Source: an uncultured Burkholderiales bacterium
Lineage (GTDB): Bacteria > Pseudomonadota > Gammaproteobacteria > Burkholderiales > Burkholderiaceae_C
Reading direction: 5' to 3'
Assembly: GCA_903870145.1 (NCBI GenBank)
Contig: CAIQBO010000049.1
Span: 62,001 to 126,000 of the forward strand
DNA length: 64,000 nt
The notes under the pieces were generated by a model, which saw only the letters and a program-made list of their open reading frames with translations, did no database searches and had not been told where the DNA came from. Below, in pieces: positions 31,492-61,495 of the stretch. Numbering within the stretch: the first letter of the stretch is position 1; the number at the start of each line of letters is the position of its first letter. The position numbers were made by a program, and so were the translations under genes.

Positions 31492-31558
31492 TTTTCACTT
31501 CGCCTCTTCGCCTACCTGAAAAAACTTGATTCACTTTTTATCTAAGGAGTTCATCGCC

Positions 31559-33324: not shown

Positions 33325-33331
33325 AATTGCA

Positions 33332-37114: not shown

Positions 37115-37115
37115 A

Positions 37116-42723: not shown

Positions 42724-43302
42724 ATGTCCTTGATCGAAATTCGCAAACGAAGTCTCGTGATTGAAACCACTTACCACGAGGGCGGCCCTGTCACTGACAC
42801 ACCCTTGCGATTGGCAGCTGCATGTGCGGTGATTCGCAATCCTTACGCAGGCCGGTATGAGCCTGACCTGATGCCCTTCATGGCCGAGCTTCGAAGCCTG
42901 GGCACCTTGCTAGCACAGGAGTTGGTCGACACCTTGGGCAAAGACAAGATTGAGGTTTACAGCAAAGCTGCCATCGTGGGTGTAGACGGTGAAATGGAAC
43001 ACGGCGCAGTGTGGCATGAAGCCGGTGGCTGGGCCATGCGCAGCGTGCTGGGCGAGCCCAAAGCCATGGTGCCTGCTTCCAAGGCAGTGGCCAGCGCTGG
43101 CTACCGTTTGATGGTGCCGGTGCACTATATCCATGCCTCTTATGTGCGCAGTCATTTCAACGGCATTGAAGTGGGCATGCAAGATGCACCCAGGCCCAAA
43201 GAGATTTTATTTGCACTGGTCATGGGCACTGGCGGCCGAATTCATTCTCGCCTGGGCGGATTGACCAAAGAGAATGTCACCGTCCACGATGGCCAGCGCT
43301 AA
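42724..43302 (+). CDS. Amino acid synthesis family protein (AA_synth, PF06684), copy A
   Basis: A 192-residue protein. It matches the family by the middle blocks V-I-R-N-P-Y-A-G-R-Y near 43, S-K-A-A-I-V-G near 92 and H-G-A-V-W-H-E near 104. A second copy lies at 52220-52804 inside the large operon. The ATG at 42724-42726 gives the family length; the frame begins 13 codons earlier. The biochemical role of the family is unknown. It faces the NicB-like gene tail-to-tail, and presence of two copies around this operon suggests that both serve the same pathway. Confidence 0.85.
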   Translation: MSLIEIRKRSLVIETTYHEGGPVTDTPLRLAAACAVIRNPYAGRYEPDLMPFMAELRSLGTLLAQELVDTLGKDKIEVYSKAAIVGVDGEMEHGAVWHEAGGWAMRSVLGEPKAMVPASKAVASAGYRLMVPVHYIHASYVRSHFNGIEVGMQDAPRPKEILFALVMGTGGRIHSRLGGLTKENVTVHDGQR

Positions 43303-43315
43303 ACCGTTCTCTGAC

Positions 43316-46300
43316 TCAGTGTGATCGGGCTCTTGCACGTGCCACAGCTTCAGGCACATTGACCCAAGGAGCTTGACCTGGGGCATAGCGTGCTCGCATC
43401 CATTCGACCAATTGCGCAATCTGTGCATTCGTCAAACTTTGCTCAAACCCTGGCATGAAGCCAAGCTCAGCGGATGCAGGGCGCTGAACACCCTCCAAGA
43501 TCACGCGAATTAAATTATCAGGCCTTGCGCTGTGCATCGTGGTATTCAGCGCCAACGGTTGATTCAAGCCTAACAAAGTGGGGCCATCGCCATCATGGTG
43601 ACAGCTACCGCAACTGCCCTCAAATTGACGCTGTGCAGTGCCGGGCAGCGGCGCATTGGCCGCTGCTGCTTGCACCAAGTCGCGAGCTTGCGCTGGCAAA
43701 TCTGCACTGGCTGATGGTTTGGAAAGGTCTGCCAAGTAAACCGCCATGGCGCGCACATCGGTGTCGGGCACAGTGGCCAGGCCGCGCACAACTTCCCCCA
43801 TGGGCCCAGCAGCCATGCCGTGCTGCGCGCTGTGGCCATGCCGCAAGTAATTGAACAGCGCTTCTTGTGTCCAGGGCAAGGGCGCGCGGCTCAGCTGCGT
43901 GAGAGCTGGCGCTTCCCAGCCCTGCACCAAGGCCCCTTGCAAATACGCTGTTTGTGATTGCTCTGCACCCAACAGGCCACGCGGGGTGTGGCAGCCACCG
44001 CAATTTCCAAGGCCGTTGACCAAGTAAGCCCCACGGTTCCACTGCGCACTTTTTAATGGGTTGTCGGTATGCACTTGCGTCTGATGAAACAATGCGTTCC
44101 AAATGCCCATCAAGGGCCGCCAATTAAATGGAAATGACAACTTCGTCTTTGGCACTTCTGAGGGCAATGCTGACTGCGACATCAAGTAGGCATACAAGGC
44201 CATCATGTCATCGTCGCGCACTAGGGCAAAGGCCGTGTAGGGGAATGCGGGATACAGTGCATGACCATCGCGCGAAACACCCTCTCGCATGGCGCGCTCA
44301 AATGCGCGGTACGACCACGCCCCTATGCCGGTGGCCACATCGGGCGTGAGGTTGGTGCTGTAGACCACACCGAACGGTGTCTCCATGGCACGGCCTCCCG
44401 CATTGATTTGTCCATCTTGTGCGGTGTGGCAACCGCCGCAGTCAGCCAAGGCCGCCAGTTGCTGGCCACGCGCAATCATGCTGATGCTGAAAGATGAGGT
44501 GCTGCCTTGCGCAACCAATGGCAAACTGCTGCGCCAGCCCAGCAAGGCAGCCCCCACCGCAAAGAGCCCCAAGCTCAGCGCCGTGACTTGCCGCCACCTG
44601 CGTTGCCAGTTGCTGGCCAAACCTGGCTGGCGGCTGGGTTTCTCTGAAGGCGTTTCTGAAAAGTTTTCAGCCGTTGGAGGGCCGGCTTCCTGCAAAGGGC
44701 TGGCTGCATGGCTCAGTGGATTCAAAGCCGCACGAACCACCTCTGGGGTAAAGGGTGGGTTGCGAAATCGAATTCCGGTAGCATCAAAAATGGCATTGGC
44801 AATGGCAGCGGTACCAGGGACTGAAGAAGACTCACCCGCACCCAATGCAGGCTCACCCAGACGAGGCATGTGCATGACCTCAATCACGGGCACATCGCGA
44901 AAACTCAAAATCGGATAACTGCCCCACTCTTGACTGACCACAGTGCCCTTGAGTGGGTCAATTTGAACTTGCTCTTTCAATGCTCTGCTGGTGGTTTGCA
45001 ACACGTTGCCATGAACTTGGTGCTCAACACCCTGCGGGTTGATCATCAATCCTGCATCGTGCCCAACCACCACGCGTTTGACATGCACTTCTCCGGTATG
45101 CCGATGCACTTGCACATCGGCCACCCACGCGGCCCAAGCGGCACCAAAGCCAGGCCACTTGCTGTGGATGTAGCGAGCGTAGGCAAAGCCTTGGCCTTGT
45201 AACCAATCACCCTGCGGCTCTTGCTGCTGTGCTTGTTGATGCGTCTTCCACTGGGCACGTTGCGCTGTGGCCTGTACCAATTCATGAGCCCTTGGGTCTT
45301 GTAAAACCTTCAAACGATATTGCACGGGGTCCACGCCAGCTGCAGTGGCCATCTCGTCAATGAAACTCTCATGTGCAAACGAGTTGGGCAATGCCGAGAC
45401 GCCTCTCAACCACGAGGCGCGCAAGATGGGCGGCATGTCGTTCACCGTGACCCGCAAATTGTCAAAGGCATAGGGCGGCCTGGCCGTGCGGTCACCCATC
45501 TCATACGCCTGCGCCAAGGGCTCAATGGTGCGTGTCAGCAGCAAAGCCAAGGTGGGCGCGCCATTGGAAGGGTAGCTGGTTTGAAAATCGTAACCTGCGG
45601 GAGAGCCATCGGCCCGCAAACCTCCGCGCACTTGCATCAACTGCGCAGCCCCTTTGGGCTCCCAAGCGTGCTCTTGCTCGCGCGTCAGTTGCACTCGCAC
45701 AGGCGCTCCAACAGCGCGTGACAGCAATGCTGCATCTGCTGCCACATCGTCGGCACCGTTTCTGCCGTAGCAGCCTGCAGCCTCCATGCGAACCACATCG
45801 ACAGCCATGTCTTGCACGCCCATGAGAAGCGCTAAGTCAGCGCGCAACACATGCGGATTTTGGCTGCCAGCCCATACTCTGAGTTGAATGTGAGGAGCCT
45901 GTGGGTCAGCGCCCTGCACCCACTGCGCCAGCGCGCATGAAGGGCCAATGGATGCGTGCATCTGATAAGGCCACACATAAGTGCGGTCTAATGTTTGTGC
46001 TGCGCCCTGCAAAGCTTGCTCGATATGACCTTCGTTGACCAGCTCTCTGCTCGTGCTCGGGTTGTTGCGCAAGGCTTGCTCGGTGTTGTCCAGACCTGGC
46101 ATGCCAGGCCATGCTTTCCACACCACTTCAAGCTCGCGCAGGGCTTGCTCTGCATGCTCTTCGCGTTCTGCCACGATGCCCACAAAGTCTGCTTGCACCA
46201 CCACAGCGCGAATGCCTGGAATGTGCGCTATCGATTCTTGATCAACCCGCTCCAGCGTCTTTCCAATGAATTCACCGCTGTCAGCGCCCGCATAAGGGGG

Positions 46301-46987
46301 GCGCAGCACACGGCCATGCAACATGCCGGGCATGCGCATGTCATGCACAAAGATCAAATCACCTGTGGTCTTTGCCAGCAAATCCACGCGAGGCAAGCTG
46401 CGGCCCACGACAAGGTAGTTTTCAGGAGATTTAACTTCGGTATTGGCATCCAAGGCCAGCACGATTTGCTGCGCAGGCACCCAATGGCTCAGCCGAGCTT
46501 GCTGGTGGGCAGGACCCAACACCAGTCCGTCGCGAATCTGCAGAGAACTCGATGGAACTTTCCAGTCGCGGCTGGCCTGCATCACCAGCCAATGTCGAAC
46601 TTGAGCAGCAGCCGATCTCAAGGGTGCGGCATGAATTTGAAGTGACGCACTGGCAATGGTGGCGCCTTGATTGGGCACAGCTGCGGTGCTGCCCATGAGC
46701 ATGTGAACGCAAGCAGGCGAGACGTCCAACTCTTCCGCCACGATTTGCGTCAATGCCGTACGCAGACCGGTGCCCAAATCAACATGACCATGCAAAGCGG
46801 TCACGCTGCCGTCATCCCAAAATGCCAACAATATTTCGACACCTTCAGCCGGATTGGAGGCCACCCAAAGCGGCTGACCAGGCATCTGCGGCACAGGTGG
46901 CAGTGGTTCACGCACGATCAACAAAACACCTTGCGATTGGTGCATGTCTGCGCGTGAACGAATTTGTTGGGCGCGCATGGTGCTCAT
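43316..46987 (-). CDS. NicB-like molybdopterin dehydrogenase subunit fused to triheme cytochrome c
   Basis: A 1223-residue fusion. Residues about 1-780 form the molybdopterin-binding subunit of the xanthine oxidase family; the active-site glutamate is in G-A-G-E-S-S-S near 717. A hydrophobic stretch (about 799-820) is followed by three heme c motifs: C-G-G-C-H near 849 and 996, and C-G-S-C-H near 1127. Nicotinate dehydrogenase NicB of Pseudomonas putida has the same domain order, and forms 6-hydroxynicotinate with electrons going to the respiratory chain. The hemes must lie in the periplasm; the side of the molybdenum domain is unclear, since no N-terminal signal is seen. The ATG overlaps the 2Fe-2S gene stop. 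Isoquinoline-type oxidoreductases are an alternative. Confidence 0.88.
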   Translation of the reverse strand: MSTMRAQQIRSRADMHQSQGVLLIVREPLPPVPQMPGQPLWVASNPAEGVEILLAFWDDGSVTALHGHVDLGTGLRTALTQIVAEELDVSPACVHMLMGSTAAVPNQGATIASASLQIHAAPLRSAAAQVRHWLVMQASRDWKVPSSSLQIRDGLVLGPAHQQARLSHWVPAQQIVLALDANTEVKSPENYLVVGRSLPRVDLLAKTTGDLIFVHDMRMPGMLHGRVLRPPYAGADSGEFIGKTLERVDQESIAHIPGIRAVVVQADFVGIVAEREEHAEQALRELEVVWKAWPGMPGLDNTEQALRNNPSTSRELVNEGHIEQALQGAAQTLDRTYVWPYQMHASIGPSCALAQWVQGADPQAPHIQLRVWAGSQNPHVLRADLALLMGVQDMAVDVVRMEAAGCYGRNGADDVAADAALLSRAVGAPVRVQLTREQEHAWEPKGAAQLMQVRGGLRADGSPAGYDFQTSYPSNGAPTLALLLTRTIEPLAQAYEMGDRTARPPYAFDNLRVTVNDMPPILRASWLRGVSALPNSFAHESFIDEMATAAGVDPVQYRLKVLQDPRAHELVQATAQRAQWKTHQQAQQQEPQGDWLQGQGFAYARYIHSKWPGFGAAWAAWVADVQVHRHTGEVHVKRVVVGHDAGLMINPQGVEHQVHGNVLQTTSRALKEQVQIDPLKGTVVSQEWGSYPILSFRDVPVIEVMHMPRLGEPALGAGESSSVPGTAAIANAIFDATGIRFRNPPFTPEVVRAALNPLSHAASPLQEAGPPTAENFSETPSEKPSRQPGLASNWQRRWRQVTALSLGLFAVGAALLGWRSSLPLVAQGSTSSFSISMIARGQQLAALADCGGCHTAQDGQINAGGRAMETPFGVVYSTNLTPDVATGIGAWSYRAFERAMREGVSRDGHALYPAFPYTAFALVRDDDMMALYAYLMSQSALPSEVPKTKLSFPFNWRPLMGIWNALFHQTQVHTDNPLKSAQWNRGAYLVNGLGNCGGCHTPRGLLGAEQSQTAYLQGALVQGWEAPALTQLSRAPLPWTQEALFNYLRHGHSAQHGMAAGPMGEVVRGLATVPDTDVRAMAVYLADLSKPSASADLPAQARDLVQAAAANAPLPGTAQRQFEGSCGSCHHDGDGPTLLGLNQPLALNTTMHSARPDNLIRVILEGVQRPASAELGFMPGFEQSLTNAQIAQLVEWMRARYAPGQAPWVNVPEAVARARARSH

Positions 46988-47466
46988 GAATTGAATGCGG
47001 TTTTTGACATCAGCGCAACGGCACGGCGTACTGCGTCGATGATCTCAATGTGCGCTCCGCAGCGACATAAATTACCCGACAAGGCTTGCTGCATTTGCAG
47101 ATCACTGGGGTTAGGGGTGTTTGCCAACAAAGCCACCGTCGTCATGATCATGCCGTTCAAACAGTAGCCGCACTGGGCGGCCTGGGCGTCTAAGAAGGCT
47201 TGTTGAACTGGGTGCAAGTTTGGGCCCTGGGCAAGCCCTTCCAAGGTCGTTATTTCACGTCCTTGAATTTCACAAGCCGGTATCACACAGGAGCGCGCAG
47301 CTACACCGTCAACCAACACCGTGCATGCACCGCACTCGCCCAAGCCGCAGCCAAACTTGGCCGCATTGAGCGCCAAGTCATTGCGAAGCACATGCAACAA
47401 GTTGGCTTGACGCGTCAAATTCAAGCTGTGCAATTGGCCGTTGACCGACAAGTGAACCGGTTTCAT
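46984..47466 (-). CDS. NicA-like [2Fe-2S] subunit of a molybdenum hydroxylase
   Basis: A 160-residue electron-transfer subunit. The plant-type cluster is bound by Cys40, Cys45, Cys48 and Cys60, and the second cluster by Cys99, Cys102, Cys134 and Cys136 (C-R-C). It partners the NicB-like subunit encoded next, overlapping by 4 bases. The length agrees with NicA of Pseudomonas putida (about 157). I chose the ATG at 47464-47466; a GTG at 47491-47493 would add nine residues and neither has a clear ribosome-binding site. Confidence 0.9.
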   Translation of the reverse strand: MKPVHLSVNGQLHSLNLTRQANLLHVLRNDLALNAAKFGCGLGECGACTVLVDGVAARSCVIPACEIQGREITTLEGLAQGPNLHPVQQAFLDAQAAQCGYCLNGMIMTTVALLANTPNPSDLQMQQALSGNLCRCGAHIEIIDAVRRAVALMSKTAFNS

Positions 47467-47485
47467 GAGATGGGGTTGCGCTCGT

Positions 47486-48229
47486 TCAAACACTCAAATA
47501 ATTTCGGCGAATTTCTTCATTTTCAGTCAGCGCGTGCATCGAAGACTCATGGCGAATTTGTCCTTTTTCCAGTACGTAGGCTCGGTCAGATACCCATTGC
47601 GCAAAGTGAAGGTTTTGCTCTGACAACAAGATGCTCACACCTTCTGCTTTGAGGGTCAAAATCATGTCTGCCATTTGCTCCACAATGACAGGCGCTACAC
47701 CCTCAGAAGGCTCGTCCAGAAGAACCAGCAAAGGGTTGCCCATCAAAGTGCGGGCGACAGTCAGCATTTGCTGTTCACCGCCACTCATGCGAGCGCCTTG
47801 GCGGTTTTGCATTTCACCCAAATTGGGGAATAAGCTGAATATTTTTTCATGCGTCCAGTAAGGTACCGGGCTGCCATCTTGAAAATGGCGCGCGGCTTGT
47901 TTGCCAACACTTAAATTTTCCAAAACCGTCAGGTCACTGAAAATGCGCCTGTCTTCCGGCACAAAACCCAAACCTTGACGCGCCACTTGATAGGGCTGAG
48001 CTTGCGATATATCACGGCCTAAAAATTCAATTTTGCCGCTGCGTTTGGGCATCATGCCCATGATGGCTTTGAGGGTGCTGGATTTGCCAGCACCATTGCG
48101 CCCCATCAGAGCGACCACCTCACCTCGGCCAACATTCAAGCTGACATCGAATAATATTTGCGCAGCGCCATACCAAGCGTTCAGACCTTGCGTCTGCAGT
48201 AAGAGGTTTTCAGCGCTGGTGTTAGACAT
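47486..48229 (-). CDS. Branched-chain-type ABC transporter ATPase, LivF-like (second transporter)
   Basis: A 247-residue ATPase. Walker A is G-R-N-G-A-G-K-S-S, the signature is M-S-G-G-E-Q-Q-M-L-T-V-A-R, and Walker B is L-V-L-L-D-E-P-S-E-G-V-A, all LivF-like. ATG at 48227-48229 or 48230-48232 is likely; a G-rich ribosome-binding site (AAAGGGGGG) stands before both and the livG stop overlaps. It lies between livG and the NicA-like gene in one operon, so its substrate is probably that of the molybdenum dehydrogenase (a pyridine carboxylate). Confidence 0.93.
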   Translation of the reverse strand: MSNTSAENLLLQTQGLNAWYGAAQILFDVSLNVGRGEVVALMGRNGAGKSSTLKAIMGMMPKRSGKIEFLGRDISQAQPYQVARQGLGFVPEDRRIFSDLTVLENLSVGKQAARHFQDGSPVPYWTHEKIFSLFPNLGEMQNRQGARMSGGEQQMLTVARTLMGNPLLVLLDEPSEGVAPVIVEQMADMILTLKAEGVSILLSEQNLHFAQWVSDRAYVLEKGQIRHESSMHALTENEEIRRNYLSV

Positions 48230-48995
48230 CATGCCCCCCCTTTCGCGCAAAGGTTTTTCCGCTGCCAAAGTAGACCTCTTGCACTTTGGGGTTGTCACGA
48301 ATTTCTTGTGCTGTGCCCTGCGCAATCAGGCCGCCTCGGGCCAATACGATGATGCGATCGGCAAAACCAAAAACCACATCCATGCTGTGCTCTGTGAACA
48401 GCACTGCCATGCCGCGCTTGGTAACCAACTCGCGCGTCAGCGTCATCAGTTTAAGGCGCTCGGCCGGGGCCATCCCTGCGGTGGGCTCGTCCATCAGCAG
48501 CAAGCGCGGTTGGTTGGCCATGGCCATGGCCAATTCCAATCGCTTGACGTCGCCATAGGCCAACTCGCTGCAGGGCCGCCCTGCTTGCTCTGCCAAGCCG
48601 ACCTGCGCCAACAAGGCCAGCGCATCGGCTCTGCGGTACAAACTGGCTCTGCGCCACATGGAGAACAAACGGGCATCGTCTGAGAGCAAGGCCATTTGAA
48701 CGTTCTCAGCCACTGTCAATGAGGCGAAGGTCTCGGCAATTTGAAATGTCCGGCCAACGCCCATTTTCCAAACCTCGCGCGGTGTTCTTCCAATCAAGCT
48801 TTGGCCATCCAAGCTGATACTGCCACTGTCGGGTTGCAGCTGACCATTGAGCAAGTTGAAAGTGGTGGACTTTCCAGCACCATTGGGTCCAATCAAAGCC
48901 AGCAACTCGCCAGGGGCCAAGTCAAATGAGACATCGTCCACAGCGCGGTTGCCACCAAATGACTTGTGCAAGCCTTTGACTTGAAGAAGACTCAT
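48222..48995 (-). CDS. Branched-chain-type ABC transporter ATPase, LivG-like (second transporter)
   Basis: A 257-residue ATPase with Walker A G-P-N-G-A-G-K-S-T and Walker B L-L-L-M-D-E-P-T-A-G-M-A. The signature region reads S-E-L-A-Y-G-D-V-K-R-L-E-L-A-M-A, that is the L-S-G-G motif replaced by L-A-Y-G, a pattern common in LivG proteins of this group. The ATG overlaps the end of the LivHM gene and the stop overlaps the livF start, so the four are translationally coupled. Confidence 0.93.
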   Translation of the reverse strand: MSLLQVKGLHKSFGGNRAVDDVSFDLAPGELLALIGPNGAGKSTTFNLLNGQLQPDSGSISLDGQSLIGRTPREVWKMGVGRTFQIAETFASLTVAENVQMALLSDDARLFSMWRRASLYRRADALALLAQVGLAEQAGRPCSELAYGDVKRLELAMAMANQPRLLLMDEPTAGMAPAERLKLMTLTRELVTKRGMAVLFTEHSMDVVFGFADRIIVLARGGLIAQGTAQEIRDNPKVQEVYFGSGKTFARKGGHDV

Positions 48996-50902
48996 GCTGC
49001 GGCCTCTCGCGTGCGCCGCAAGGCTTTGAATCGTTCATCCGCAAACCCAGCCAAACCCTGCGGAAAGACCATCACCAAGAGCAAAATCGTGCCGCCAAGC
49101 ACAGCGCGCCAGTAATCGGTGCTGCGTGCGATGCTGTCTTGCAGTCCTGTGAAACTGATCGCGCCAATCAAGGGGCCTACCACCGTTTGCACGCCGCCCA
49201 AAAGCACCATCACCAAGCCGTCAACGGACTTGGTCACCCCCATCGAGTCGGGTGATATGCTGCCCTTGGAAAATGCAAACAAGGCCCCGGCCAAGCCAGC
49301 AAACATGGCAGCCACCACGAAGCCCGCCCACTGCAAATGCTTGACGTTCATGCCCAAAGCTTCTGCGCGCAGTGCGGAGTCACGACAGGCGCGCAAGGCA
49401 TAGCCAAAGGGTGCAAACAACATCCGGCGCAGGGCGTAGACGCCTAGGCCAGTGAGTGCCAAACACAGGTAGTAGTACATTCGTTTGTCTGCCAACCAAG
49501 GGCTTGGCCAAACTCCTGTCAAACCGTTGCTACCGCCCGTCAAGCTGTCCCACTGAAAACAAATTGACCATAAAATTTGACCGAATGCCAGCGTCAACAT
49601 GGCCAAATAAACACCCGACAAGCGCACACAAAACCAACCGAATACCACTGCTGCCAGAGCTGTGAGCAGGGGCGCAAAAAACAGCGTCAACTCCATCGGC
49701 ACGTGCGCCCGCAAAACCAAGAGTGCCGCCACATAAGCACCTAGACCAAAATAAGCTGCGTGTCCAAATGAGTGCATGCCTGCGGGCCCCATGATGAAGT
49801 GCAGACTGCTGGCAAACAATGCGGCAGTCAACAAATCAATGGCCAAGACTGTGGTGTAGGGAGACTGTGCCGTTATCTGCGGCAAAGCCACCAGCACCAA
49901 GCCACACAAAATCCAAACCACTTGGTTGCCCACTCCGCCCAGTTGCAAAGGGGCCTCGGCTTTGCCGCTGTGGCGCGGGTTGGTTTGCGGCTTACCCATC
50001 AAACCCCAGGGGCGCACCATCAGCACCACAGCCATGACCAAAAACTCGGCCACCAGTGTGAGTTTGGAAAATGCAAACGACATGCCCCACATCTCTACCG
50101 TGCCAAGGCCCACACACATGGCCTTGATTTCTGCAATCAACAGCGCAGCCACATAGGCCCCGGGAATCGAGCCCATGCCCCCCACCACCACCACCACAAA
50201 AGCGTCGCCAATGGTGAGCAAATCAAGGCCCAAATTGGCCGGTTCACGGGGCAGTTGCAAAGCACCGCCCAACCCTGCCAGGGCGCAGCCCAATGCAAAG
50301 ACGCTGGTGAACAACCAGCGTTGGTGTATGCCCAAAGCACCAACCATCTCACGGTCTTGGGTGGCAGCGCGCACCAGCGTGCCAAAGCGAGTGCGAGTCA
50401 GCAACAACCACATCAACCCCAATACCAGTGGACCGATTGCAATGAGGAGCAAGTCGTAACTTGGAAATCGTCGCCCTAAAATATCCACCGCGCCAGAAAA
50501 ACCTGGTGCACGTGGGCCGAGCAAATCTTCAGGGCCCCAAATCCAAAGAGTCGCATCTTTGATCACCAGCACCAAAGCAAAAGTTGCCAGGAGCTGAAAC
50601 AATTCAGGCGCTTTGTAGATGCGCCGCAGCAGCAGCATTTCAACCAAACCACCCAGCAACCCTGAAATCAAAGCGGCCAAAAGCAGCAGCCACCAAAAGC
50701 TCACAGACAGGCCGACCGCCCTGCCCACATGCTCGACTAAGGAATACGCCAGATAAATGCCCAGCATGAAAAATGAGCCATGGGCAAAGTTAACGATGCG
50801 TGTCACGCCAAAAATCAGCGACAAACCTGCGGCCACTAAAAATAAAGAAGAGGCCCCCGCCAAACCGTTGAGCCCCTGCACTGCAAAACCAGAAAAATCC
50901 AT
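48992..50902 (-). CDS. Fused branched-chain-type ABC transporter permease (LivH-LivM)
   Basis: A 636-residue protein that joins both permeases. The first half (about 1-295) has the LivH block R-I-V-N-F-A-H-G-S near 31-39. The second half (about 325-636) has the LivM block H-S-F-G-H-A-A-Y-F-G-L-G-A-Y near 372-386 and the coupling loop A-E-A-L-G-M-N-V near 525. A polar linker near 300-325 joins them. About 17 membrane segments are predicted by eye. It moves the ligand of the downstream-encoded dehydrogenase pathway across the inner membrane. Confidence 0.93.
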   Translation of the reverse strand: MDFSGFAVQGLNGLAGASSLFLVAAGLSLIFGVTRIVNFAHGSFFMLGIYLAYSLVEHVGRAVGLSVSFWWLLLLAALISGLLGGLVEMLLLRRIYKAPELFQLLATFALVLVIKDATLWIWGPEDLLGPRAPGFSGAVDILGRRFPSYDLLLIAIGPLVLGLMWLLLTRTRFGTLVRAATQDREMVGALGIHQRWLFTSVFALGCALAGLGGALQLPREPANLGLDLLTIGDAFVVVVVGGMGSIPGAYVAALLIAEIKAMCVGLGTVEMWGMSFAFSKLTLVAEFLVMAVVLMVRPWGLMGKPQTNPRHSGKAEAPLQLGGVGNQVVWILCGLVLVALPQITAQSPYTTVLAIDLLTAALFASSLHFIMGPAGMHSFGHAAYFGLGAYVAALLVLRAHVPMELTLFFAPLLTALAAVVFGWFCVRLSGVYLAMLTLAFGQILWSICFQWDSLTGGSNGLTGVWPSPWLADKRMYYYLCLALTGLGVYALRRMLFAPFGYALRACRDSALRAEALGMNVKHLQWAGFVVAAMFAGLAGALFAFSKGSISPDSMGVTKSVDGLVMVLLGGVQTVVGPLIGAISFTGLQDSIARSTDYWRAVLGGTILLLVMVFPQGLAGFADERFKALRRTREAAA

Positions 50903-50974
50903 GTCTACATTCCGTCAAAAATAGCCCGCAAGCGGCGTCCCATGCGCCTCTTGCGAGCTTGGTCAGGTATTAAC

Positions 50975-52180
50975 TCAATCTGGTTGACGCATTTTTTTGA
51001 CTTCATCGTTGCTCGGCTGGAAGGCCGCACCGTCCATGTAACGGTAGTCCACCATCACGCCTTTGCCATTTTCGTTTTTGATGCGTCCAACGAACGCGCC
51101 CATGGTCGATTGATGGTCTTGCGAACGGAAAGTGACTTTGCCAAATGGGCTGCTCATGCTCAAATCACGGAATGCAACGACCAGTTTTTCGGCATCTGTG
51201 CTGTTGGCTTTTTTGATGCCCACGGCCAGCGCTTGAATCATGGTGTAGCCCACAACCGAGCCCAGGCGTGGGTAATCATTGAACTTGCTTTGGTATGCAC
51301 CCAAGAAGGCTTTGTGCTCAGCGGTGTTGATGCCATTCCAAGGGTAGCCTGTGACGATCCAGCCATTGGGCGTTTCCTCTTTCAGAGGGTCCAAATACTC
51401 GGGCTCGCCTGTGAGCAAACTGACCACCTCACGGCCTTGGAAAAGACCTCGGGTGTTGCCCTCTCGCACAAACTTGGTCAGGTCAGCACCAAACAAAACA
51501 TTGAAGATGGCATCGGGTTTGGCATCGGCCAAGGCCTGCACAACAGCCCCCGCCTCGACTTTGCCCAAGGCAGGTGCTTGTTCAGCCACAAATTCAACAT
51601 CGGGTTGCGCGGCTTTGAGCAACTGTTTGAAGGTGGCGGCAGCCGACTGCCCGTATTCGTAGTTGGGGTAGACCACGGCCCAGCGTTTTTTCTTCAGCTT
51701 GACCGCTTCTGGCACCAACATGGCCGCTTGCATGTAAGTTGATGCACGCAGACGGAAAGTATATTTGTTGCCACCTTGCCAAACAATTTTGTCAGTCAAG
51801 GGTTCACCTGCCAAAAAGAAAATTTTCTTTTGCTTTGAAAAATCTGTCAATGCCAAACCAATGTGCGAAAGGAATGTGCCGCTGAGCACATCCACTTGCT
51901 CGCGTGAAATCAACTCTTCAGCTGCGCGCACGGCATCACCGGGGGTGGCATTGTCATCACGGATCAGGAGTTGCAATTTTTTCCCATTCACGCCACCTGC
52001 CGCATTGATCTCGTCAACCGCCAATTCCATGCCTTTTTTGTAGGGCTCCAAAAATGCGGGCTGCGCTTTGTAGCTGTTGATTTCACCAATTTTGATGACG
52101 CCTTGCGCCACGGCCGGTGTCAGGCCCAAAGCCAACACCACAGCGGCAGCAGCGCGTGAGAGATTACGAAAGTTTTTCAT
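50975..52180 (-). CDS. ABC transporter substrate-binding protein (LivK-like), probable pyridine carboxylate receptor
   Basis: A 401-residue periplasmic receptor. The ATG at 52178-52180 is preceded by AAGGAG and opens a signal peptide ending P-A-V-A-Q. I-K-I-G-E-I-N-S-Y near 28 and Y-K-K-G-M-E-L-A-V-D-E-I-N-A-A-G-G near 45 are typical of the peripla_BP_6 family. It is transcribed between the AA_synth and LivHM genes, in the operon with the nicotinate-type catabolic enzymes. A ligand such as nicotinate or 6-hydroxynicotinate is inferred from context only. Confidence 0.9.
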   Translation of the reverse strand: MKNFRNLSRAAAAVVLALGLTPAVAQGVIKIGEINSYKAQPAFLEPYKKGMELAVDEINAAGGVNGKKLQLLIRDDNATPGDAVRAAEELISREQVDVLSGTFLSHIGLALTDFSKQKKIFFLAGEPLTDKIVWQGGNKYTFRLRASTYMQAAMLVPEAVKLKKKRWAVVYPNYEYGQSAAATFKQLLKAAQPDVEFVAEQAPALGKVEAGAVVQALADAKPDAIFNVLFGADLTKFVREGNTRGLFQGREVVSLLTGEPEYLDPLKEETPNGWIVTGYPWNGINTAEHKAFLGAYQSKFNDYPRLGSVVGYTMIQALAVGIKKANSTDAEKLVVAFRDLSMSSPFGKVTFRSQDHQSTMGAFVGRIKNENGKGVMVDYRYMDGAAFQPSNDEVKKMRQPD

Positions 52181-52219
52181 GCAGGCTCCTTTGTAAATAT
52201 GCACGATGACGAGAAAAAT

Positions 52220-52804
52220 TCAACGCAGACCGTCTTGCCCGACGATGTCTGCAACTTGCAGGCCCCCAATGCGAGGCAAGGGACGACCACTGTCGGTCAC
52301 CACCACTGCCACCAAGATTTCGTTTGCAAAAGGCGCATCGCTCACGCGCGCCTCCATGGCGTCAAAATGAGTGCGCACGAAGGCCGCATCTTTATGGCCC
52401 AATGGCACGTCAATGGCAGTACCCAAGGTTCCACGTTTTTTGGCAGATGGCACCAAAGCAGCACCTTTGCTGACTGCTTGGCGCAAAGGCGCCCCCAATT
52501 TGGGGTGCAGTACAGCGGCTGCATGTTCAAGTTCGCCCGCCTCTCCCACGATCGCAGCTTTGCCATAACTTTGCGCGTGCTCCGGCGCAATGCCCAAGGC
52601 TTGCACGCAGCGCATGCCCAGCAATCCGCCCAATTCTTCACCGATCTGAATCAGGCTGTCTAAGTTTTCACTGTAGCGCCCGGCATAGGGGTTTTCAATC
52701 ACCGCCATGGCCAATGCGCGGCGCGTGGGGGGCGAGACGACTTGACCGCCTTCAAGATGGGTTTCGTCCACTTGCACCACGAGTTTGCGAATTTTGGCTT
52801 TCAT
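52220..52804 (-). CDS. Amino acid synthesis family protein (AA_synth, PF06684), copy B
   Basis: A 194-residue protein related to the copy at 42724-43302. Shared blocks are V-I-E-N-P-Y-A-G-R-Y near 36, G-K-A-A-I-V-G near 87 and the S-D-A-P stretch near 158, but the two are well diverged. It lies 16 bases after UPF0280 and 39 bases before the receptor gene. In other proteobacteria, members often sit beside 6-hydroxynicotinate reductase and enamidase homologues (from memory). The function is unassigned; a role in ring opening or in processing formylglutarate derivatives would fit the position. Confidence 0.87.
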   Translation of the reverse strand: MKAKIRKLVVQVDETHLEGGQVVSPPTRRALAMAVIENPYAGRYSENLDSLIQIGEELGGLLGMRCVQALGIAPEHAQSYGKAAIVGEAGELEHAAAVLHPKLGAPLRQAVSKGAALVPSAKKRGTLGTAIDVPLGHKDAAFVRTHFDAMEARVSDAPFANEILVAVVVTDSGRPLPRIGGLQVADIVGQDGLR

Positions 52805-52820
52805 GAATGATTCTTTCTAT

Positions 52821-53714
52821 CTATCCAGCTAAGCAGGCTTCTTGCCCTGCGTATTCAAACTGTCCTTGACAGCACAACAAGGCGGCGTGAACCAAGCCCC
52901 GAGCTTGTAAATCTTGCGCACAGGCATGGCCTTTGGCCAAGGCTTGTGCCACCAGATGTGCGGGCAGCGAAGGCACCGCCACCGTCACGCAACGTTCACC
53001 CAAATCACTGTCATCACGCAATTGGTTTGCAGGTTGACGCACGATGCGTGCATCGGAAATGTTGACCGCATTGGCGATCAATGTGACTGCCGCATCCGCT
53101 TGCGAGGCCGTCATGGCCAACACGGTCACACTGTCGGCAATGCCCAAAGAGTGACTGCGACCGCGCCATCCGCTGGTGGCAATTCCGCGCACGGGCATCT
53201 GCGCTGTCACGTGCAACTCGCCATCGAGCAGGTCTTGCGCGCCTGGCACTTTCGCCCAAGCCCGTGCAATATCGCTGACCAAGCCAATTCGGCTCGATGT
53301 GCCCTCTGTCAAATGCAAAGCGATATCACCCCCATTGTTAACCCATGCGCGCGTCACGCCACTTTGTTGGTAACACGCCAGCATGCTTTGCGCCACAGAG
53401 CCTGCCACCGCAGCCATGGGGGTGATAAAACCATCGTGACCGGTGATGAATGCATTGGCCAAGGGTGCACAAGCTTCCCACATCATCCGTGCAATAGCAC
53501 CGTTGAAAGGATTGTTGGCCTGCGCTTGCACTGCTTGACGCAGCACAGACAACTCCCCCGCCAAAGTTGGCAGCACATCTTGAAATTTACCCCAAGCCTG
53601 TTCGTGCGCCCGCGCAACGCAGGCCTGATCACCATCGGCTTGAATGATCAAGTCAATGGGGCCGTGTTGAAAATGCCAACGGTTGGGGCTGAGGAGGCGG
53701 CGCTGGGCAGACAT
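52821..53714 (-). CDS. UPF0280 family protein (ApbE-like fold)
   Basis: A 297-residue protein. The family block V-N-N-G-G-D-I-A-L-H-L near 125-135 resembles the flavin-transferase site of ApbE (N-x-G-G-D). T-S-G-W-R-G-R-S-H-S-L-G-I-A-D-S near 177-192 is a second conserved block. ApbE attaches FMN covalently to proteins; UPF0280 is a remote relative whose activity is unproven. It lies 6 bases after the 6-hydroxynicotinate reductase gene, so it is a candidate maturation factor for that flavoprotein. Confidence 0.88.
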   Translation of the reverse strand: MSAQRRLLSPNRWHFQHGPIDLIIQADGDQACVARAHEQAWGKFQDVLPTLAGELSVLRQAVQAQANNPFNGAIARMMWEACAPLANAFITGHDGFITPMAAVAGSVAQSMLACYQQSGVTRAWVNNGGDIALHLTEGTSSRIGLVSDIARAWAKVPGAQDLLDGELHVTAQMPVRGIATSGWRGRSHSLGIADSVTVLAMTASQADAAVTLIANAVNISDARIVRQPANQLRDDSDLGERCVTVAVPSLPAHLVAQALAKGHACAQDLQARGLVHAALLCCQGQFEYAGQEACLAG

Positions 53715-53720
53715 AGGGGG

Positions 53721-55328
53721 CTAGCCTAACATCGGCGGACTGTCCAAGGGCCAAGGGTTGTCCCCGATGGACGGTGCCTCCCAGCGCACTTGTGTCGGAG
53801 CCCCGTCGGTGTGCCAAGCGCCGTGGCGCAAGCTGTCGTCCAGGCTGCGCACATAACCCATATGACCTCCCAAGGCTTTGTAATCTGACAGGCGCATGGT
53901 GAATTCGATCGGGGCCACAATGGCTGGGGTGGGCACGGTGCCAAAACTTCCACGGGGCATGCGCAGCACATCCACCATGATGGTAATGCCCCCTCCCGGC
54001 CACACATAAGAAGGTGCGCCACCACAAGTCACATTGACCAGTGCTCGTTTGATGGCGCGGGTCAGAAGCACTGGGTTGTCCGTGATGCCCGCACGCAAAC
54101 TGCCCCCCGCTCCTCCTAAAAACAGCACGGACACCATAGAGGGTTCGCAGTTTTCACCGATGCGATCAACCACCTGGCGCACCGCTTCGGGCATGGTGGC
54201 TTCTTGCGCTTGCAACTGCTCATCCAGCACATACCAAGCTGCGTGCTCGCCGGTGGTCGAGGTCATCAACAAGCGCAGGCCCGGGCGCGCCACATCGGCG
54301 TCCCACGCATCCAAAATAGACAAGGGGTCTTCTATGTCAGTACCGCCCCAACCGGTGCCCGGATTGGCTACTTGAAAGTAACGCCCAGGGGTCGACTTGC
54401 GCCCCTTGATTTGAATGCCGCTGGGACGAATGTGCAAACATTTTCCGGCTTGGTGCTCACTCAATACGCCAGTGATGTGGTCATCTACCACCACCACTTC
54501 GTCACACAAGCCAAGCCACTGCTGCGCAAAAATACCAATGGCTGCTGAGCCGCAACCCACCCGCATGCGCTGCTCCTTCACGCCGTTGACAATGGGCGCT
54601 TGGCCCGCTTGCAGCACCACAGTAGAGCCCCCTTCGACCTGAACCTCCACAGCGTCGCGGTTGCCCAAAGCCTGCATCATGTTCATGGTGATGCGCCCCT
54701 CTTTTTTGCTGCCACCCGTCAGGTGGTGCACACCCCCCAGGCTGAACATTTGAGAGCCGTATTCAGCCGTGGTCACATGCCCAACCACCTCGCCTTGACA
54801 ACGCACAGCAGCCTGCTCCGGCCCCAGATACCGGTCGGTGTCGATCTTCACTTTCAGACTGCAGTAACTGAAAATACCCTCCGTGACCACCGTGACCATG
54901 TCCACGCCGCGGGACTGCGAAGCCACGATGAAAGGCGCAGGTTTGTAGTCAGGGTAAGTGGTGGAAGAGCCGACGCCGGTCACAAATACACCATGGGATG
55001 GCGTGGCCTCATGGTCTTGCGCTTTGATTTGCGTAGCCTCCCGCAATGACAATTCACCGAGTTTGCTGTCTTGAATGTGAGTGTCTTTTTGCAACAGGCT
55101 TTGCTGCAAAACGACCACTGGGTCTAAGCGGACCAACAGGCCATCCCGATTCGCGTAGCGGTCACATGCGCCTGCGCGGCCTTTGGAGATTTGGCACAGC
55201 ACTGGGCAAGCGTTGCACTCAATTTTATTTCCAGCCATTTGCTCGTTCCGCAAGGAAGCGTGCTCCATGCCCCAATTGGGCGATGCCCCTTCAGGCCCTG
55301 GTAAACCGTCTGATTGGGTGTGGGTCAT
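53721..55328 (-). CDS. hnr: 6-Hydroxynicotinate reductase
   Basis: A 535-residue iron-sulfur protein. Cys38, Cys41, Cys45 and Cys55 (C-N-A-C-P-V-L-C...C) form an N-terminal [4Fe-4S] site. The rest matches the reductase known from Eubacterium barkeri, which uses reduced ferredoxin to turn 6-hydroxynicotinate into 1,4,5,6-tetrahydro-6-oxonicotinate. Glycine-rich F-L-G-G-A-G-G-S near 411 and V-W-P-G-G-G-I near 454 are part of the conserved core. No signal peptide, so cytoplasmic. First gene of the nine-gene operon and divergent from the enamidase gene. Met21 or Met31 (base 55238) are alternative starts, since no ribosome-binding site favours the first. Identification is from family memory and context. 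Confidence 0.86.
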   Translation of the reverse strand: MTHTQSDGLPGPEGASPNWGMEHASLRNEQMAGNKIECNACPVLCQISKGRAGACDRYANRDGLLVRLDPVVVLQQSLLQKDTHIQDSKLGELSLREATQIKAQDHEATPSHGVFVTGVGSSTTYPDYKPAPFIVASQSRGVDMVTVVTEGIFSYCSLKVKIDTDRYLGPEQAAVRCQGEVVGHVTTAEYGSQMFSLGGVHHLTGGSKKEGRITMNMMQALGNRDAVEVQVEGGSTVVLQAGQAPIVNGVKEQRMRVGCGSAAIGIFAQQWLGLCDEVVVVDDHITGVLSEHQAGKCLHIRPSGIQIKGRKSTPGRYFQVANPGTGWGGTDIEDPLSILDAWDADVARPGLRLLMTSTTGEHAAWYVLDEQLQAQEATMPEAVRQVVDRIGENCEPSMVSVLFLGGAGGSLRAGITDNPVLLTRAIKRALVNVTCGGAPSYVWPGGGITIMVDVLRMPRGSFGTVPTPAIVAPIEFTMRLSDYKALGGHMGYVRSLDDSLRHGAWHTDGAPTQVRWEAPSIGDNPWPLDSPPMLG

Positions 55329-55489
55329 TTGGGCGTCGCGAGCAAGTTGTCTATTGGGTTCATCTTGTGTAACATTCGCTGCAAATTGGTGTTATAAAAA
55401 TTCGCTCAAACGGCAATATATCGCATTGTGTGGGTTGTGCTCAGCATTGCGTTCATACTGTCAAAATTAATCACATTGGAGAAGCTCGC
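55329..55489. promoter_or_regulatory. Divergent promoter region between hnr and ena
   Basis: 161 AT-rich bases separate the two divergent genes. ATTCGCT is repeated directly at 55374-55380 and 55400-55406, 26 bases apart; both are followed by CAAA within two bases. This could be the binding site of one regulator for both genes. I see no consensus -35/-10 pair worth reporting. Confidence 0.4.
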
Positions 55490-56677
55490 ATGGCAACCGC
55501 AGTTGTGGAAGAAAAATCAGGAAAAGTGGTCTTGCGACATATTGGATTGCTGCTCTCGGGTGACATTGACCACCCCATCTTAGATGCTGACACCATTGTG
55601 ATTCAAGATGGCATCATCACCGCCGTTGGGCGGGAAAAAGATTGTGATATTTCGGGCGCAAAAACCACCATCGATGTCCAACAAACCTGCGTTGCCCCGG
55701 GTTTGATCGACAGCCATGTGCACCCCGTTTTTGGTGACTGGACACCGCGTCAAAACCAACTTGGCTGGATTGAATCAACCATGCATGGCGGCGTGACCAC
55801 CATGATTTCGGCAGGTGAAGTGCACTTGCCCGGTCGCCCCAAAGACATCGTGGGCCTCAAAGCCTTGGCCATCACCGCACAGCGCGCTTTTGACAACTTC
55901 CGCCCGGGAGGGGTGAAAGTCATTGCGGGTGCACCCGTCATCGAAAAAGGCATGACCGAGCACGACTTTGAAGAACTTGCCGCCGCGGGTGTGACGCTTT
56001 TGGGCGAAGTCGGGCTTGGCTCCGTCAAGGCTGGTTACGAAGCCAAAGAGATGGTGGCTTGGGCTCGCAAGAACGGCATACAAAGCACCATCCATACGGG
56101 CGGCCCTTCTATTCCAGGATCAGGCTTGATCGACAAAGATGTGGTGCTTGAAGCTGACGCTGACGTCATTGGCCACATCAACGGGGGCCACACTTCTTTG
56201 CCTGAAGCACATGTGTGTGAGTTGTGCGAGAAATCAAGCCGCGCCATTGAGATCGTTCACAACGGCAACGAACGCGTTGCGATCATCGCGGCCAAAGCCG
56301 CCTTGGAGCTCAAGTGCCCACACCGCGTGATTTTAGGCACCGATGGGCCCGCTGGCTCAGGGGTTCAGCCCTTGGGCATGCTGCGCATGGTGGCCCTGCT
56401 CTCAAGCCTTGGCAACATACCAGCCGAATTGGTTTTTTGTTTTGCCACAGGCAACACCGCACGCATTCGCAACTTGAATTGCGGGTTGGTTGAAGTGGGC
56501 CGCGCGGCAGACTTTGTCTTCATGGACCGTGCACAGCACACCGCAGGCAAGACTTTGCTCGAAAGCGTGCAATTGGGCGACATACCCGGCGTGGGCATGG
56601 TCATGATTGACGGCTTGGTGCGCTGCGGCAGAAGTCGCAATACACCGCCAGCTACCCAGGTGCCTGTGCAAGTGTAA
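55490..56677 (+). CDS. ena: Enamidase (amidohydrolase family)
   Basis: A 395-residue amidohydrolase. The first metal site has His76 and His78 in D-S-H-V-H-P; Glu173 in G-E-V-G-L-G, His202 in I-H-T-G-G, His229 in G-H-I-N-G-G-H and Asp285 in L-G-T-D-G-P complete the binuclear site. The arrangement and many blocks, such as H-G-G-V-T-T-M-I-S-A-G and R-S-R-N-T-P-P-A, match the enamidase of Eubacterium barkeri, which hydrolyses tetrahydro-6-oxonicotinate to 2-formylglutarate and ammonia. The ATG has GGAGAAG upstream. It is divergent from hnr, whose product is its substrate. Confidence 0.9.
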   Translation: MATAVVEEKSGKVVLRHIGLLLSGDIDHPILDADTIVIQDGIITAVGREKDCDISGAKTTIDVQQTCVAPGLIDSHVHPVFGDWTPRQNQLGWIESTMHGGVTTMISAGEVHLPGRPKDIVGLKALAITAQRAFDNFRPGGVKVIAGAPVIEKGMTEHDFEELAAAGVTLLGEVGLGSVKAGYEAKEMVAWARKNGIQSTIHTGGPSIPGSGLIDKDVVLEADADVIGHINGGHTSLPEAHVCELCEKSSRAIEIVHNGNERVAIIAAKAALELKCPHRVILGTDGPAGSGVQPLGMLRMVALLSSLGNIPAELVFCFATGNTARIRNLNCGLVEVGRAADFVFMDRAQHTAGKTLLESVQLGDIPGVGMVMIDGLVRCGRSRNTPPATQVPVQV

Positions 56678-56683: not shown

Positions 56684-56720
56684 GCTTTACAGCCTATTTT
56701 TTAAGGCTACTAAACAAAGC
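56684..56720. terminator. Possible bidirectional terminator between ena and the sugar-type operon
   Basis: AGCCT at 56691-56695 pairs with AGGCT at 56704-56708 around an AT-rich loop, and GCTTT at 56684-56688 can pair with AAAGC at 56716-56720 to extend the stem. The T-run is in the loop rather than after the stem, so it is not a classic intrinsic terminator. It sits between two convergent stops. Confidence 0.4.
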
Positions 56721-57588
56721 TCTTATGCCTTGCAATGCAGGTGTCAAGCACATGCGAATGATCACGTTGCCACCAATTGCCTGTTGAAAAAATTTCAACT
56801 TCACTGAAGCCAGAAAATCCTTGAGCTTCCACCCAGCCTCTGATTTTGGGAATATCGATCACCCCATCGCCCATCATGCCGCGATCGTTCAGCATGTCTG
56901 TGGTGGGGGTTAACCAATCACAGACATGAAAGGCCAGCAGTCTACTCTTGCCTGCGCGTTCAATTTGTTGCTGCAATTTGGGGTCCCACCACACATGGTA
57001 GACATCTACAGCAACCCCTAAAGCGCCGCTTTGATCAGGGTCCAATGCATCACAAACATCCAGCGCTTGCTCTAAGGTGTTGATGCATGCCCGGTCTGCC
57101 GCATACATGGGATGAAGCGGCTCAATGGCCAGCGGCATATGACAAGACTTGGCATAACTGAGTAATTGAGCAATGCCATCGTGGACCTGATGGCGCGAGC
57201 GCGCGATGTCCTTGTGGGCTGCTTTACCGTCCAAAGCACCGGGCAGACCGCCCACCACCAAGACCAAGCACTGGGCATTGAGTTCGCACGCTTCGTCTAC
57301 AGCCATGCGGTTGTCAAGCTCAGCGGCCTGGGTAGCTTGCGAATCTACCGCCGGAAACATGCCTCCACGACAGTAGCCCGAGAGCTTCAGCCCATGACTT
57401 TTCACAAGCTTGGAAACGACGGACAGTCCCGCTGCCGTAACTTGGTCACGCCAAGGAGAGATCGCACCTATGCCTCGCTCGACACAAGCCTCTATGATTT
57501 TTGGCAAAGGCAGATCCATTCCATTGCTTTTTCGAACAGTAGCGGTGTTGATCGACAAGCATTCATGGTTGAGAGAAAAGTCACGCAT
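56710..57588 (-). CDS. Sugar phosphate isomerase/epimerase family TIM-barrel protein
   Basis: A 292-residue protein of the xylose isomerase-like/AP endonuclease 2 fold. Glu in A-I-E-P-L-H-P near 155, Asp in V-A-V-D-V-Y-H-V-W-W near 191, His in A-F-H-V-C-D-W near 219 and Glu in S-E-V-E-I-F near 263 mark the metal site. Members isomerise or epimerise keto sugars, inosose or hydroxypyruvate-type compounds. It is the last gene of the minus-strand operon that starts beyond the right window edge. The substrate is not known. Confidence 0.86.
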   Translation of the reverse strand: MRDFSLNHECLSINTATVRKSNGMDLPLPKIIEACVERGIGAISPWRDQVTAAGLSVVSKLVKSHGLKLSGYCRGGMFPAVDSQATQAAELDNRMAVDEACELNAQCLVLVVGGLPGALDGKAAHKDIARSRHQVHDGIAQLLSYAKSCHMPLAIEPLHPMYAADRACINTLEQALDVCDALDPDQSGALGVAVDVYHVWWDPKLQQQIERAGKSRLLAFHVCDWLTPTTDMLNDRGMMGDGVIDIPKIRGWVEAQGFSGFSEVEIFSTGNWWQRDHSHVLDTCIARHKSFV

Positions 57589-57611
57589 GTTTGATCATTC
57601 AATAAGTAGTG

Positions 57612-58541: not shown

Positions 58542-58550
58542 GGCGCTGCT

Positions 58551-59261
58551 TCAATGCACAACAGAGGCGCCACCACAAATGGTAATGTCCTGACCTGTGA
58601 TGGCCGATGCTTGTGGCCCTAGCAGATATAAAACCAAAGCAGCCACCTCATCAGGCTGTATGAGTCTTCCAATGGGCGGCAGCTTGGGTGGCGTGTTGGT
58701 TCGTGCAGGGTCGTGCAGCATCGGCGTATCCGTGGCAGCAGGAGAGACCACATTGACCGTGACACCCCGCTCAATAGATTCTGCGGCCCAGCTTCGAGCC
58801 AAAGAAGCCAGCGCTGCTTTGGTTGCCGCATATTGACTTTTGCCTGATATGCCGCCTGAAACCCTGCTGCCAATCAAAACCATTCGGCCTTGTCTGGCTT
58901 GATGCATCAGCGGCAAGAAACGATTGGCCAGTCGCGTTGCCACGTCCACATGCAAACGCCACATCTGCTCGCCAGCATCACTCTCTAATTGCCCCAAAGG
59001 CCCTGCTCTGAGCACACCCGCGGCATGAACAACCGCTTGGGGCAAGCCCATGGCCAGCAATCTTTCCAACACAATTTCAAGTGCGCTCGAATCGGTCAGA
59101 TCGACCAAGCACTCATGGACACCTTGGGCATTGAAGTTGCCCTTGGCAATGTCCAGTGCATGAACATGCCAACCATTGGAAAGCAATTTTTTGGCAATTG
59201 CTCGCCCAATACCAGAACTGGCACCCGTCACAATGGCACAAGGAGGTGGCTTGGATAACAT
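58551..59261 (-). CDS. Short-chain dehydrogenase/reductase (SDR)
   Basis: A 236-residue classical SDR. T-G-A-S-S-G-I-G-R-A at 12-21 binds NAD(P), the catalytic Ser is in L-I-G-S-R-V near 132, and Y-A-A-T-K near 144 holds the Tyr and Lys. It is only 9 bases from the beta-hydroxyacid dehydrogenase gene and 8 bases from the receptor gene. It probably oxidises a hydroxyl of the imported sugar acid-like compound. Confidence 0.9.
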   Translation of the reverse strand: MLSKPPPCAIVTGASSGIGRAIAKKLLSNGWHVHALDIAKGNFNAQGVHECLVDLTDSSALEIVLERLLAMGLPQAVVHAAGVLRAGPLGQLESDAGEQMWRLHVDVATRLANRFLPLMHQARQGRMVLIGSRVSGGISGKSQYAATKAALASLARSWAAESIERGVTVNVVSPAATDTPMLHDPARTNTPPKLPPIGRLIQPDEVAALVLYLLGPQASAITGQDITICGGASVVH

Positions 59262-59269
59262 TGCTTGAA

Positions 59270-60253: not shown

Positions 60254-60299
60254 AGTATTCCCTGGCTATTCAATCAATCATCATGACAATTTTTAACTT

Positions 60300-61484: not shown

Positions 61485-61495
61485 GCGCAACGCCT

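Follow-up and report, generated by a model that had tools for sequence, protein, structure and literature searches.

A probable cytochrome-linked, reductive nicotinate-type operon in a Burkholderiales bacterium, and the pairing of its predicted ring reductase with UPF0280

In a 64,000-nucleotide stretch of DNA from an uncultured Burkholderiales bacterium (hereafter the window; G000:C49:62001-126000, in a 2.89-Mb genome), we identified an operon that, on its sequence, very probably serves reductive-type catabolism of nicotinate (vitamin B3), combining an importer, a NicAB-type entry enzyme, a 6-hydroxynicotinate reductase-like protein (Hnr) and an enamidase. Aromatic-ring reduction comes at a high cost and is seldom seen outside anaerobes. 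The most informative gene of the operon is UPF0280 (presumably COG2122), which the original prediction for this DNA did not single out. Its co-occurrence with Hnr makes a conserved gene of obscure role testable as an accessory to a ring reductase. The pairing is also relevant to the helper function that has been suggested for relatives of UPF0280 in homocysteine synthesis.

UPF0280 (52821..53714, minus strand) follows hnr (53721..55328, minus strand) and was assigned by NCBIfam PRK04334.1-2 (364.7 bits; cut-off 290), its structural model, Foldseek and co-occurrence; an annotated relative carries its counterpart under the name UPF0280. Across a phylum-level sample of 398 genomes, Hnr and UPF0280 were present in an identical 32 and neither was found elsewhere. 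An order-level sample of 349 genomes gave 26 with Hnr and 26 with UPF0280, 25 of them common to both; the exceptions were G126 (78% complete, match at a contig end), with Hnr and no UPF0280, and G084 (97% complete), with UPF0280 and no Hnr. The two samples overlap, and since four to six candidates were scored per genome, very divergent copies of either protein could escape. Fisher P values for the co-occurrence were 6e-48 in the phylum sample and 2e-24 by genus (16/212), both inflated by relatedness. The two genes lay at least 4.8 kb apart or on separate contigs (which need not imply a large distance) in 5 of the 25 order-level genomes; close linkage alone is therefore insufficient to explain the pairing, with the caveat that all five genomes are from genus g37.

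The pairing also held in gene neighbourhoods. A genome scan gave 191 matched stretches; from 172 relatives the best 80 loci were kept, extending no more than 10 kb to either side of Hnr. These same 80 loci, many of which stop at contig ends, both supplied the profiles and were searched with them. The Hnr profile matched 79 of the 80 loci, the eightieth (L032) having Hnr in one open frame with an iron–sulphur–molybdenum (FeS-Mo) subunit. UPF0280 was likewise matched in 79, the exception (L047) being a 3.9-kb contig that ends shortly past Hnr. Among 78 pairs, 72 were within 400 nt on the same strand, three were at 459-480 nt and three were 4.1-8.0 kb apart; no direct fusion of the two proteins occurred in the 80 loci. 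This near-universal pairing suggests that Hnr needs UPF0280. As a side observation, UPF0280 in G240 and in G704 contains one in-frame TGA each.

The fold of UPF0280 points in a similar direction. Its model (predicted local distance difference test score, pLDDT, 93.6) matched DVU1097 first in Foldseek (2o34, E 9e-12), followed by ApbE, FmnB and Ftp at E 4.8e-6 or weaker; in all, 36 PDB chains had E ≤ 0.001, two of them 2o34 and 34 ApbE, FmnB or Ftp. No Pfam family, ApbE included, matched at E 0.001. Residues N126, G128, G129, D130, S181, G182, R186 and D207 were invariant in 38 aligned sequences (the window and 37 of 56 listed open reading frames, ORFs), and position 211 was T or S. The E. barkeri Hnr reportedly holds a covalent flavin. 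Co-occurrence and fold lead us to propose a role for UPF0280 in the maturation of Hnr, possibly in attachment or handling of its flavin. More specifically, and tentatively, UPF0280 might be a dedicated cytoplasmic Hnr maturation enzyme on which the activity of the reductase depends, an ApbE-fold flavin or related cofactor transferase with a new target site. Hnr, UPF0280 and AA_synth would then be an interchangeable unit for ring reduction, joined to varied entry hydroxylases (cytochrome-linked or flavin adenine dinucleotide (FAD)-type) and ring hydrolases (enamidase, or ATP-dependent hydantoinase A/B).

It is possible, if somewhat doubtful, that UPF0280 is a pathway enzyme or regulator rather than a maturation factor. 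The ApbE target motif, D-x-x-[ST]-G-A-[ST] in the available part of PMC12052999, was present in none of 73 Hnr proteins, nor in the window Hnr, so that action through the ordinary motif was rejected. An ordinary ApbE is encoded elsewhere in the same genome. According to the accessible portion of PMC5764234, the homology between COG2122 and ApbE seemingly stops short of the flavin-binding region, and a persulfide role proposed for COG2122 is cited there. Against an enzyme or regulator stand the flavin-transferase fold and the closeness with which UPF0280 follows Hnr (32/32 genomes) compared with enamidase (18/32). We found no report of a role of UPF0280 for Hnr, and no paper naming UPF0280, in the open-access papers searched, a set without key older papers.

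Hnr itself was recognised through the names of its homologues. It has no Pfam or NCBIfam family and matched PDB sequences at nothing better than E 0.4. Its place in a reductive pathway follows from the NCBI names of homologues (13 of the 20 plasmid homologues listed, from 26 records in total, are named 6-hydroxynicotinate reductase, the rest being nameless or 'hypothetical') and from an annotated Comamonadaceae plasmid. The closest Hnr among the best 80 of 172 relatives was from a Limnohabitans metagenome-assembled genome (MAG; 90%). Residues C38, C41, C45 and C55 are invariant across 32 aligned sequences (the window and 31 of the 80 loci) and form a possible 4Fe-4S site. The model, built from 32 close sequences, was middling (pLDDT 72.7) and its best PDB fold match weak (E 0.078), so no conclusion on the fold was drawn. 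The Hnr of G364 (G364:C1:2969811-2971252) appeared as two matches in different frames with slight overlap. In L032 (6296-11434, plus strand), an FeS-Mo hydroxylase subunit and Hnr share a single open frame of 1713 codons with ∼35 residues between them, which could be a genuine fusion or could stem from the assembly of this one MAG.

The entry enzyme sets this operon apart from most of its relatives. The NicB-like subunit (43316..46987, minus strand), assigned by Pfam, PDB search and motifs, has MoCoBD and cytochrome c domains. As originally predicted for a triheme molybdopterin subunit, it carries three CxxCH haem motifs (residues 850, 996 and 1126), preceded by one hydrophobic, membrane-like stretch near residue 800. 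The NicA-like 2Fe-2S subunit (46984..47493, minus strand) was assigned by Pfam. Plasmid homologues of NicB were listed in 25 rows, and the three inspected outside Hnr clusters were each in an apparently complete oxidative nic cluster, with neighbours named 2,5-dihydroxypyridine dioxygenase, FAD monooxygenase, alpha/beta hydrolase, Asp/Glu racemase and N-carbamoylsarcosine amidohydrolase. The window NicB shares 53-55% full-length identity with these three (65-67% among themselves), compared with 61% and 78% for the Hnr-linked NicB of L142 and of L003 (the latter incomplete at the end of its stretch). For the window NicA, identity to two NicA-type counterparts from oxidative clusters is 58% and 67%. 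When nine Pantoea nic-cluster proteins were blasted against the window, NicA and NicB matched and none of NicC, NicX, NicD, NicE or NicF did. This result, together with the homology to oxidative-cluster NicAB, upholds the original claims that the reductive branch is coupled to a NicAB entry and that NicC and the maleamate genes are absent from the window, NicC-like and NicX-like genes of the same genome being on other contigs.

Those distant genes raise the alternative that the genome also runs an oxidative nicotinate branch, with Hnr and enamidase as a side branch, which we consider very improbable. The NicX-like (39%) and NicC-like (best 36%) proteins are consistent with it, as is an alpha/beta hydrolase gene adjoining the NicX-like gene. 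However, the two genes are on different contigs, the NicX-like gene also neighbours acyl-CoA dehydrogenase and AMP-ligase genes, and no NicD, NicE or NicF was detected (tblastn, E 1e-8) in the window or in six stretches of the same genome, the parts searched. As an observation in its own right, the 39% homologue of 2,5-dihydroxypyridine dioxygenase is encoded at 9199-10281 (minus strand) of stretch L150 (G000:C19:24000-42000), where its neighbours specify acyl-CoA dehydrogenase, AMP-ligase and alpha/beta hydrolase; the set possibly represents an unrecognised ring cleavage through coenzyme A (CoA) esters.

Across the 80 loci, the entry enzyme was FAD-type in 47, cytochrome-type in 17 and FeS-Mo only in 7, with none found in 9; for the 53 loci longer than 20 kb, the counts were 39, 11, 0 and 3. 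In an Hnr tree of 74 rows (73 loci and the window; L010, L023 and L024 not included), the cytochrome type accounted for 17 rows, the window and 16 loci, every one of them inside a single 22-row clade (support 100/100) whose other five rows are loci without a detected entry enzyme. Records in this clade are Burkholderiales or beta-proteobacterial by title, with one labelled Proteobacteria alone. The FAD type is carried by two Burkholderiaceae loci, L023 and L024, both outside the tree. Since the cytochrome-type rows lie in a single clade, the cytochrome-linked variant may reflect one exchange of entry enzyme, in either direction. As far as these loci indicate, cytochrome-linked entry is a less usual, Burkholderiales-type variant of the reductive nicotinate cluster.

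For ring opening, the window encodes an enamidase (55490..56677, plus strand; Pfam amidohydrolase) whose membership of the family is supported by a match to PDB 2vun, which we take to be the enamidase from E. barkeri, at E 9.9e-107 over residues 32-410. The alignment retains the HxH, Glu, two later His and Asp, which presumably include the metal ligands. Enamidase converts the Hnr product to 2-formylglutarate and ammonia. Some relatives may use a different hydrolase: hydantoinase A and/or B genes (each family confirmed on one example) were found at 9 of the 80 Hnr loci, with enamidase in none of those nine stretches, and the other 14 full-flank loci without enamidase had no hydantoinase either. 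On the Pleomorphomonas sp. SM30 plasmid (L146; 12043-19510), the Hnr core is followed by apc3/apc4 (hydantoinase-like, named as acetophenone carboxylase subunits) and nicR. Two hypothetical proteins there occupy the UPF0280 and AA_synth positions, the first resembling UPF0280 by eye; no enamidase is named, and no molybdenum hydroxylase is present in the 25.5 kb shown. Hydantoinase-bearing Hnr clusters may act on other substrates.

The window operon could be read as acting on a different pyridine or azaarene carboxylate through the same hydroxylate-reduce-hydrolyse chemistry, nicotinate not being the physiological substrate. The hydantoinase loci without enamidase and the Pleomorphomonas core without a molybdenum hydroxylase favour this, and sequence cannot reveal the specificity of the importer. 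We nevertheless judge it unlikely, given the close enamidase in the window, a window NicAB that among the proteins compared comes closest to its counterparts in oxidative nic clusters, and nicotinamidase-like genes at 11 of the 80 loci.

We favour nicotinate as the substrate, and the originally predicted nicotinate-type reductive pathway is supported by the NicAB-like entry, Hnr, the enamidase and a dedicated importer. Its novelty had been overstated, as an aerobic reductive route is already described for Azorhizobium and Bradyrhizobiaceae clusters in the available part of PMC3511419. In the proposed scheme, the Liv-type importer would take up nicotinate or a close pyridine carboxylate. By homology, NicAB would convert nicotinate to 6-hydroxynicotinate, passing electrons via three haems to the respiratory chain. 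Hnr would then use low-potential electrons for ring reduction, yielding 6-oxo-1,4,5,6-tetrahydronicotinate, UPF0280 being required for active Hnr if co-occurrence and fold are a guide. The enamidase would release 2-formylglutarate and ammonia from the tetrahydronicotinate product, again by homology, and 2-formylglutarate would enter glutarate metabolism, with the AA_synth proteins perhaps helping some step.

Because NicAB electrons are expected at high potential, Hnr needs a separate low-potential donor. The route probably runs from NADPH through ferredoxin-NADP reductase (FNR) and ferredoxin to Hnr, as suggested by genes beside hnr in relatives. An FNR gene was present at 9 of 11 full-flank cytochrome-type loci compared with 4 of 39 FAD-type loci, and at 18 of 22 loci (L002-L022 and L026) it lies beside hnr at the divergent intergenic position. 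An FNR homologue (78%) is encoded on another contig of the same genome. Separately, 34464-38943 of the window (minus strand) encodes PorA, PorB, a GltD-like protein fused to a PorD-type ferredoxin and, by eye, a PorG-like protein (38353-38943), a possible low-potential electron source. As a dedicated Hnr donor this set found no support, since it occurred in 0 of 80 loci, although this is a weak test because the set lies ∼15 kb from hnr and the loci reach at most 10 kb.

Several points weigh against the nicotinate reading. Neither FNR nor tetR, both of which adjoin hnr in relatives, is present in the window. Enamidase was missing from 14 of the 32 Hnr-bearing genomes (E 1e-50; present in 18) and from 21 of the 53 full-flank loci, so Hnr is not invariably paired with enamidase. 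The best CoA-transferase of the same genome scores 501.9, below the succinate-glutarate CoA-transferase cut-off of 750. Strain SG-6C counts both ways in the accessible text of PMC3511419: in favour of the reading, it grows on nicotinate via 6-hydroxynicotinate and has an Hnr homologue 42% identical to E. barkeri Hnr, but it yielded no metabolite beyond 6-hydroxynicotinate; the reduced ring is therefore unseen in SG-6C. A candidate for the next enzyme of an E. barkeri-type route, the 3-hydroxyisobutyrate dehydrogenase family gene at 57612-58541, was unsupported, having weak matches (23-27%) in 4 of the 80 loci.

All eleven predicted genes are open and in place: nine closely spaced on the minus strand, enamidase oriented divergently to them and the second AA_synth convergently. 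The importer, assigned by Pfam and encoded on the minus strand, comprises a periplasmic receptor (50975..52204; Peripla_BP_6), a fused LivH-LivM permease (48992..50902; two BPD_transp_2 stretches), a LivG-type ATPase (48222..48995) and a LivF-type ATPase (47486..48232). Two starts were probably misplaced: the LivF ORF opens at 48325, where ATG 48232 is preferred, and the enamidase ORF opens at GTG 55430, with ATG 55490 the likely start. From nicB to hnr the gaps are -4, -8, -11, -4, +72, +15, +16 and +6 nt (ORF coordinates, LivF corrected), and a divergent intergenic region of 161 bp (55329..55489) separates hnr from the enamidase gene. A scan of the whole window with Rfam gave nothing at gathering scores. 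The run of genes is not due to chance, because many of the 80 relatives share it, and gene order is conserved in Burkholderiales-type loci. In agreement, the Comamonadaceae plasmid has the same operon annotated by name, with FNR and TetR genes added and both AA_synth genes adjacent.

Further genes recurred at the 80 loci: first AA_synth (60), second AA_synth (57), enamidase (41), FNR-like (24), class III CoA-transferase (14), nicotinamidase-like (11) and ferredoxin (7). Family names were tested on single members: against NCBIfam, the nicotinamidase member scored 210.7, above its cut-off of 174, while the FNR (125.3; cut-off 390) and succinate-glutarate CoA-transferase (230.9; cut-off 750) members fell under theirs, these being the best or sole names. 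Given this naming and the reuse of loci for profiles, the nicotinamidase and CoA-transferase labels may include paralogues.

The first AA_synth gene (52220..52804, minus strand) and the second (42724..43302, plus strand, convergent to nicB) both belong to PF06684 (DUF1185) by Pfam and pair with two solved members, 2qtp (E 1.5e-84) and 3byq (E 1.6e-113), respectively. PF06684 was present in 31 of 32 Hnr-bearing and 4 of 30 Hnr-negative genomes (P 4e-12), a comparison biased by sampling, as all 30 negatives came from the order of the window and 28 of the 32 positives from outside it. In the available part of PMC2954203, the amino-acid role rested on fold and neighbouring genes, including branched-chain amino-acid transport. 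Here, the Liv-type transporter belongs to a nicotinate-type operon, which makes the AA_synth annotation doubtful and suggests that this widespread name is misleading. In the accessible portion of PMC7913881, the kin HcdD (and TgnF, by citation) are linked to the degradation of coumarin and trigonelline; no effect of HcdD could be demonstrated there. We infer that AA_synth works in heterocycle breakdown.

Other clusters flank the operon. At 29304-34426 (plus strand), a class V aminotransferase, a phosphonate-type ABC transporter and an iron alcohol dehydrogenase look like a phosphonate uptake and use cluster. At 56710-62659 (minus strand), xylose isomerase-like, dehydrogenase, SDR, TctC receptor, DUF993 and GFO/IDH/MocA genes are probably a separate sugar-type pathway.

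Among known systems, Eubacterium barkeri reportedly ferments nicotinate anaerobically via Hnr and enamidase steps. The window shares both steps, its enamidase matching 2vun, while its entry enzyme is distant from nicotinate dehydrogenase 3hrd (E 6.8e-27 and 1.9e-6), which ranked behind aldehyde dehydrogenase 8gy3, and no B12-mutase family was among the genes scanned at 39021-62659. The oxidative NicABCDEFX clusters on plasmids of Pseudomonas sp. BYT-5, Azospirillum oryzae and Pantoea dispersa have the same NicB-type entry with three haem motifs, but the window has Hnr, UPF0280, AA_synth and enamidase in place of matches to NicC, NicX, NicD, NicE and NicF. We found no report of a Burkholderiales NicAB variant, and no paper treating 6-hydroxynicotinate reductase and enamidase together, in the open-access papers searched, older key papers being outside that set. 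Closest in content are the clusters of Azorhizobium caulinodans, Bradyrhizobium, Rhodopseudomonas palustris and SG-6C, where, in the available part of PMC3511419, Hnr, genes for the first three steps, an ABC transporter and two conserved unknowns are clustered. The window differs in its NicAB with three haem motifs, most non-Burkholderiales loci in our set (as distinct from the published strains) having a fused FeS-Mo protein and a separate FAD subunit. For UPF0280, the likeness to ApbE, FmnB and Ftp lies in the fold (best flavin-transferase match E 4.8e-6, probability 1.00) and, for the ApbE of the same genome, in the correspondence of NNGGDI with NLAGDM and IATSG with LATSG in a weak hhalign alignment (probability 41.6, E 2.7e-4); it differs in lacking a Pfam match, in query-normalised template modelling (TM) scores of 0.33-0.49 and in the missing target motif of Hnr. 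The COG2122 protein of homocysteine synthesis, in the passages available from PMC5764234, has DUF39 and NIL/ferredoxin proteins as partners where UPF0280 has Hnr, but it is likewise an ApbE-related protein, required together with those partners.

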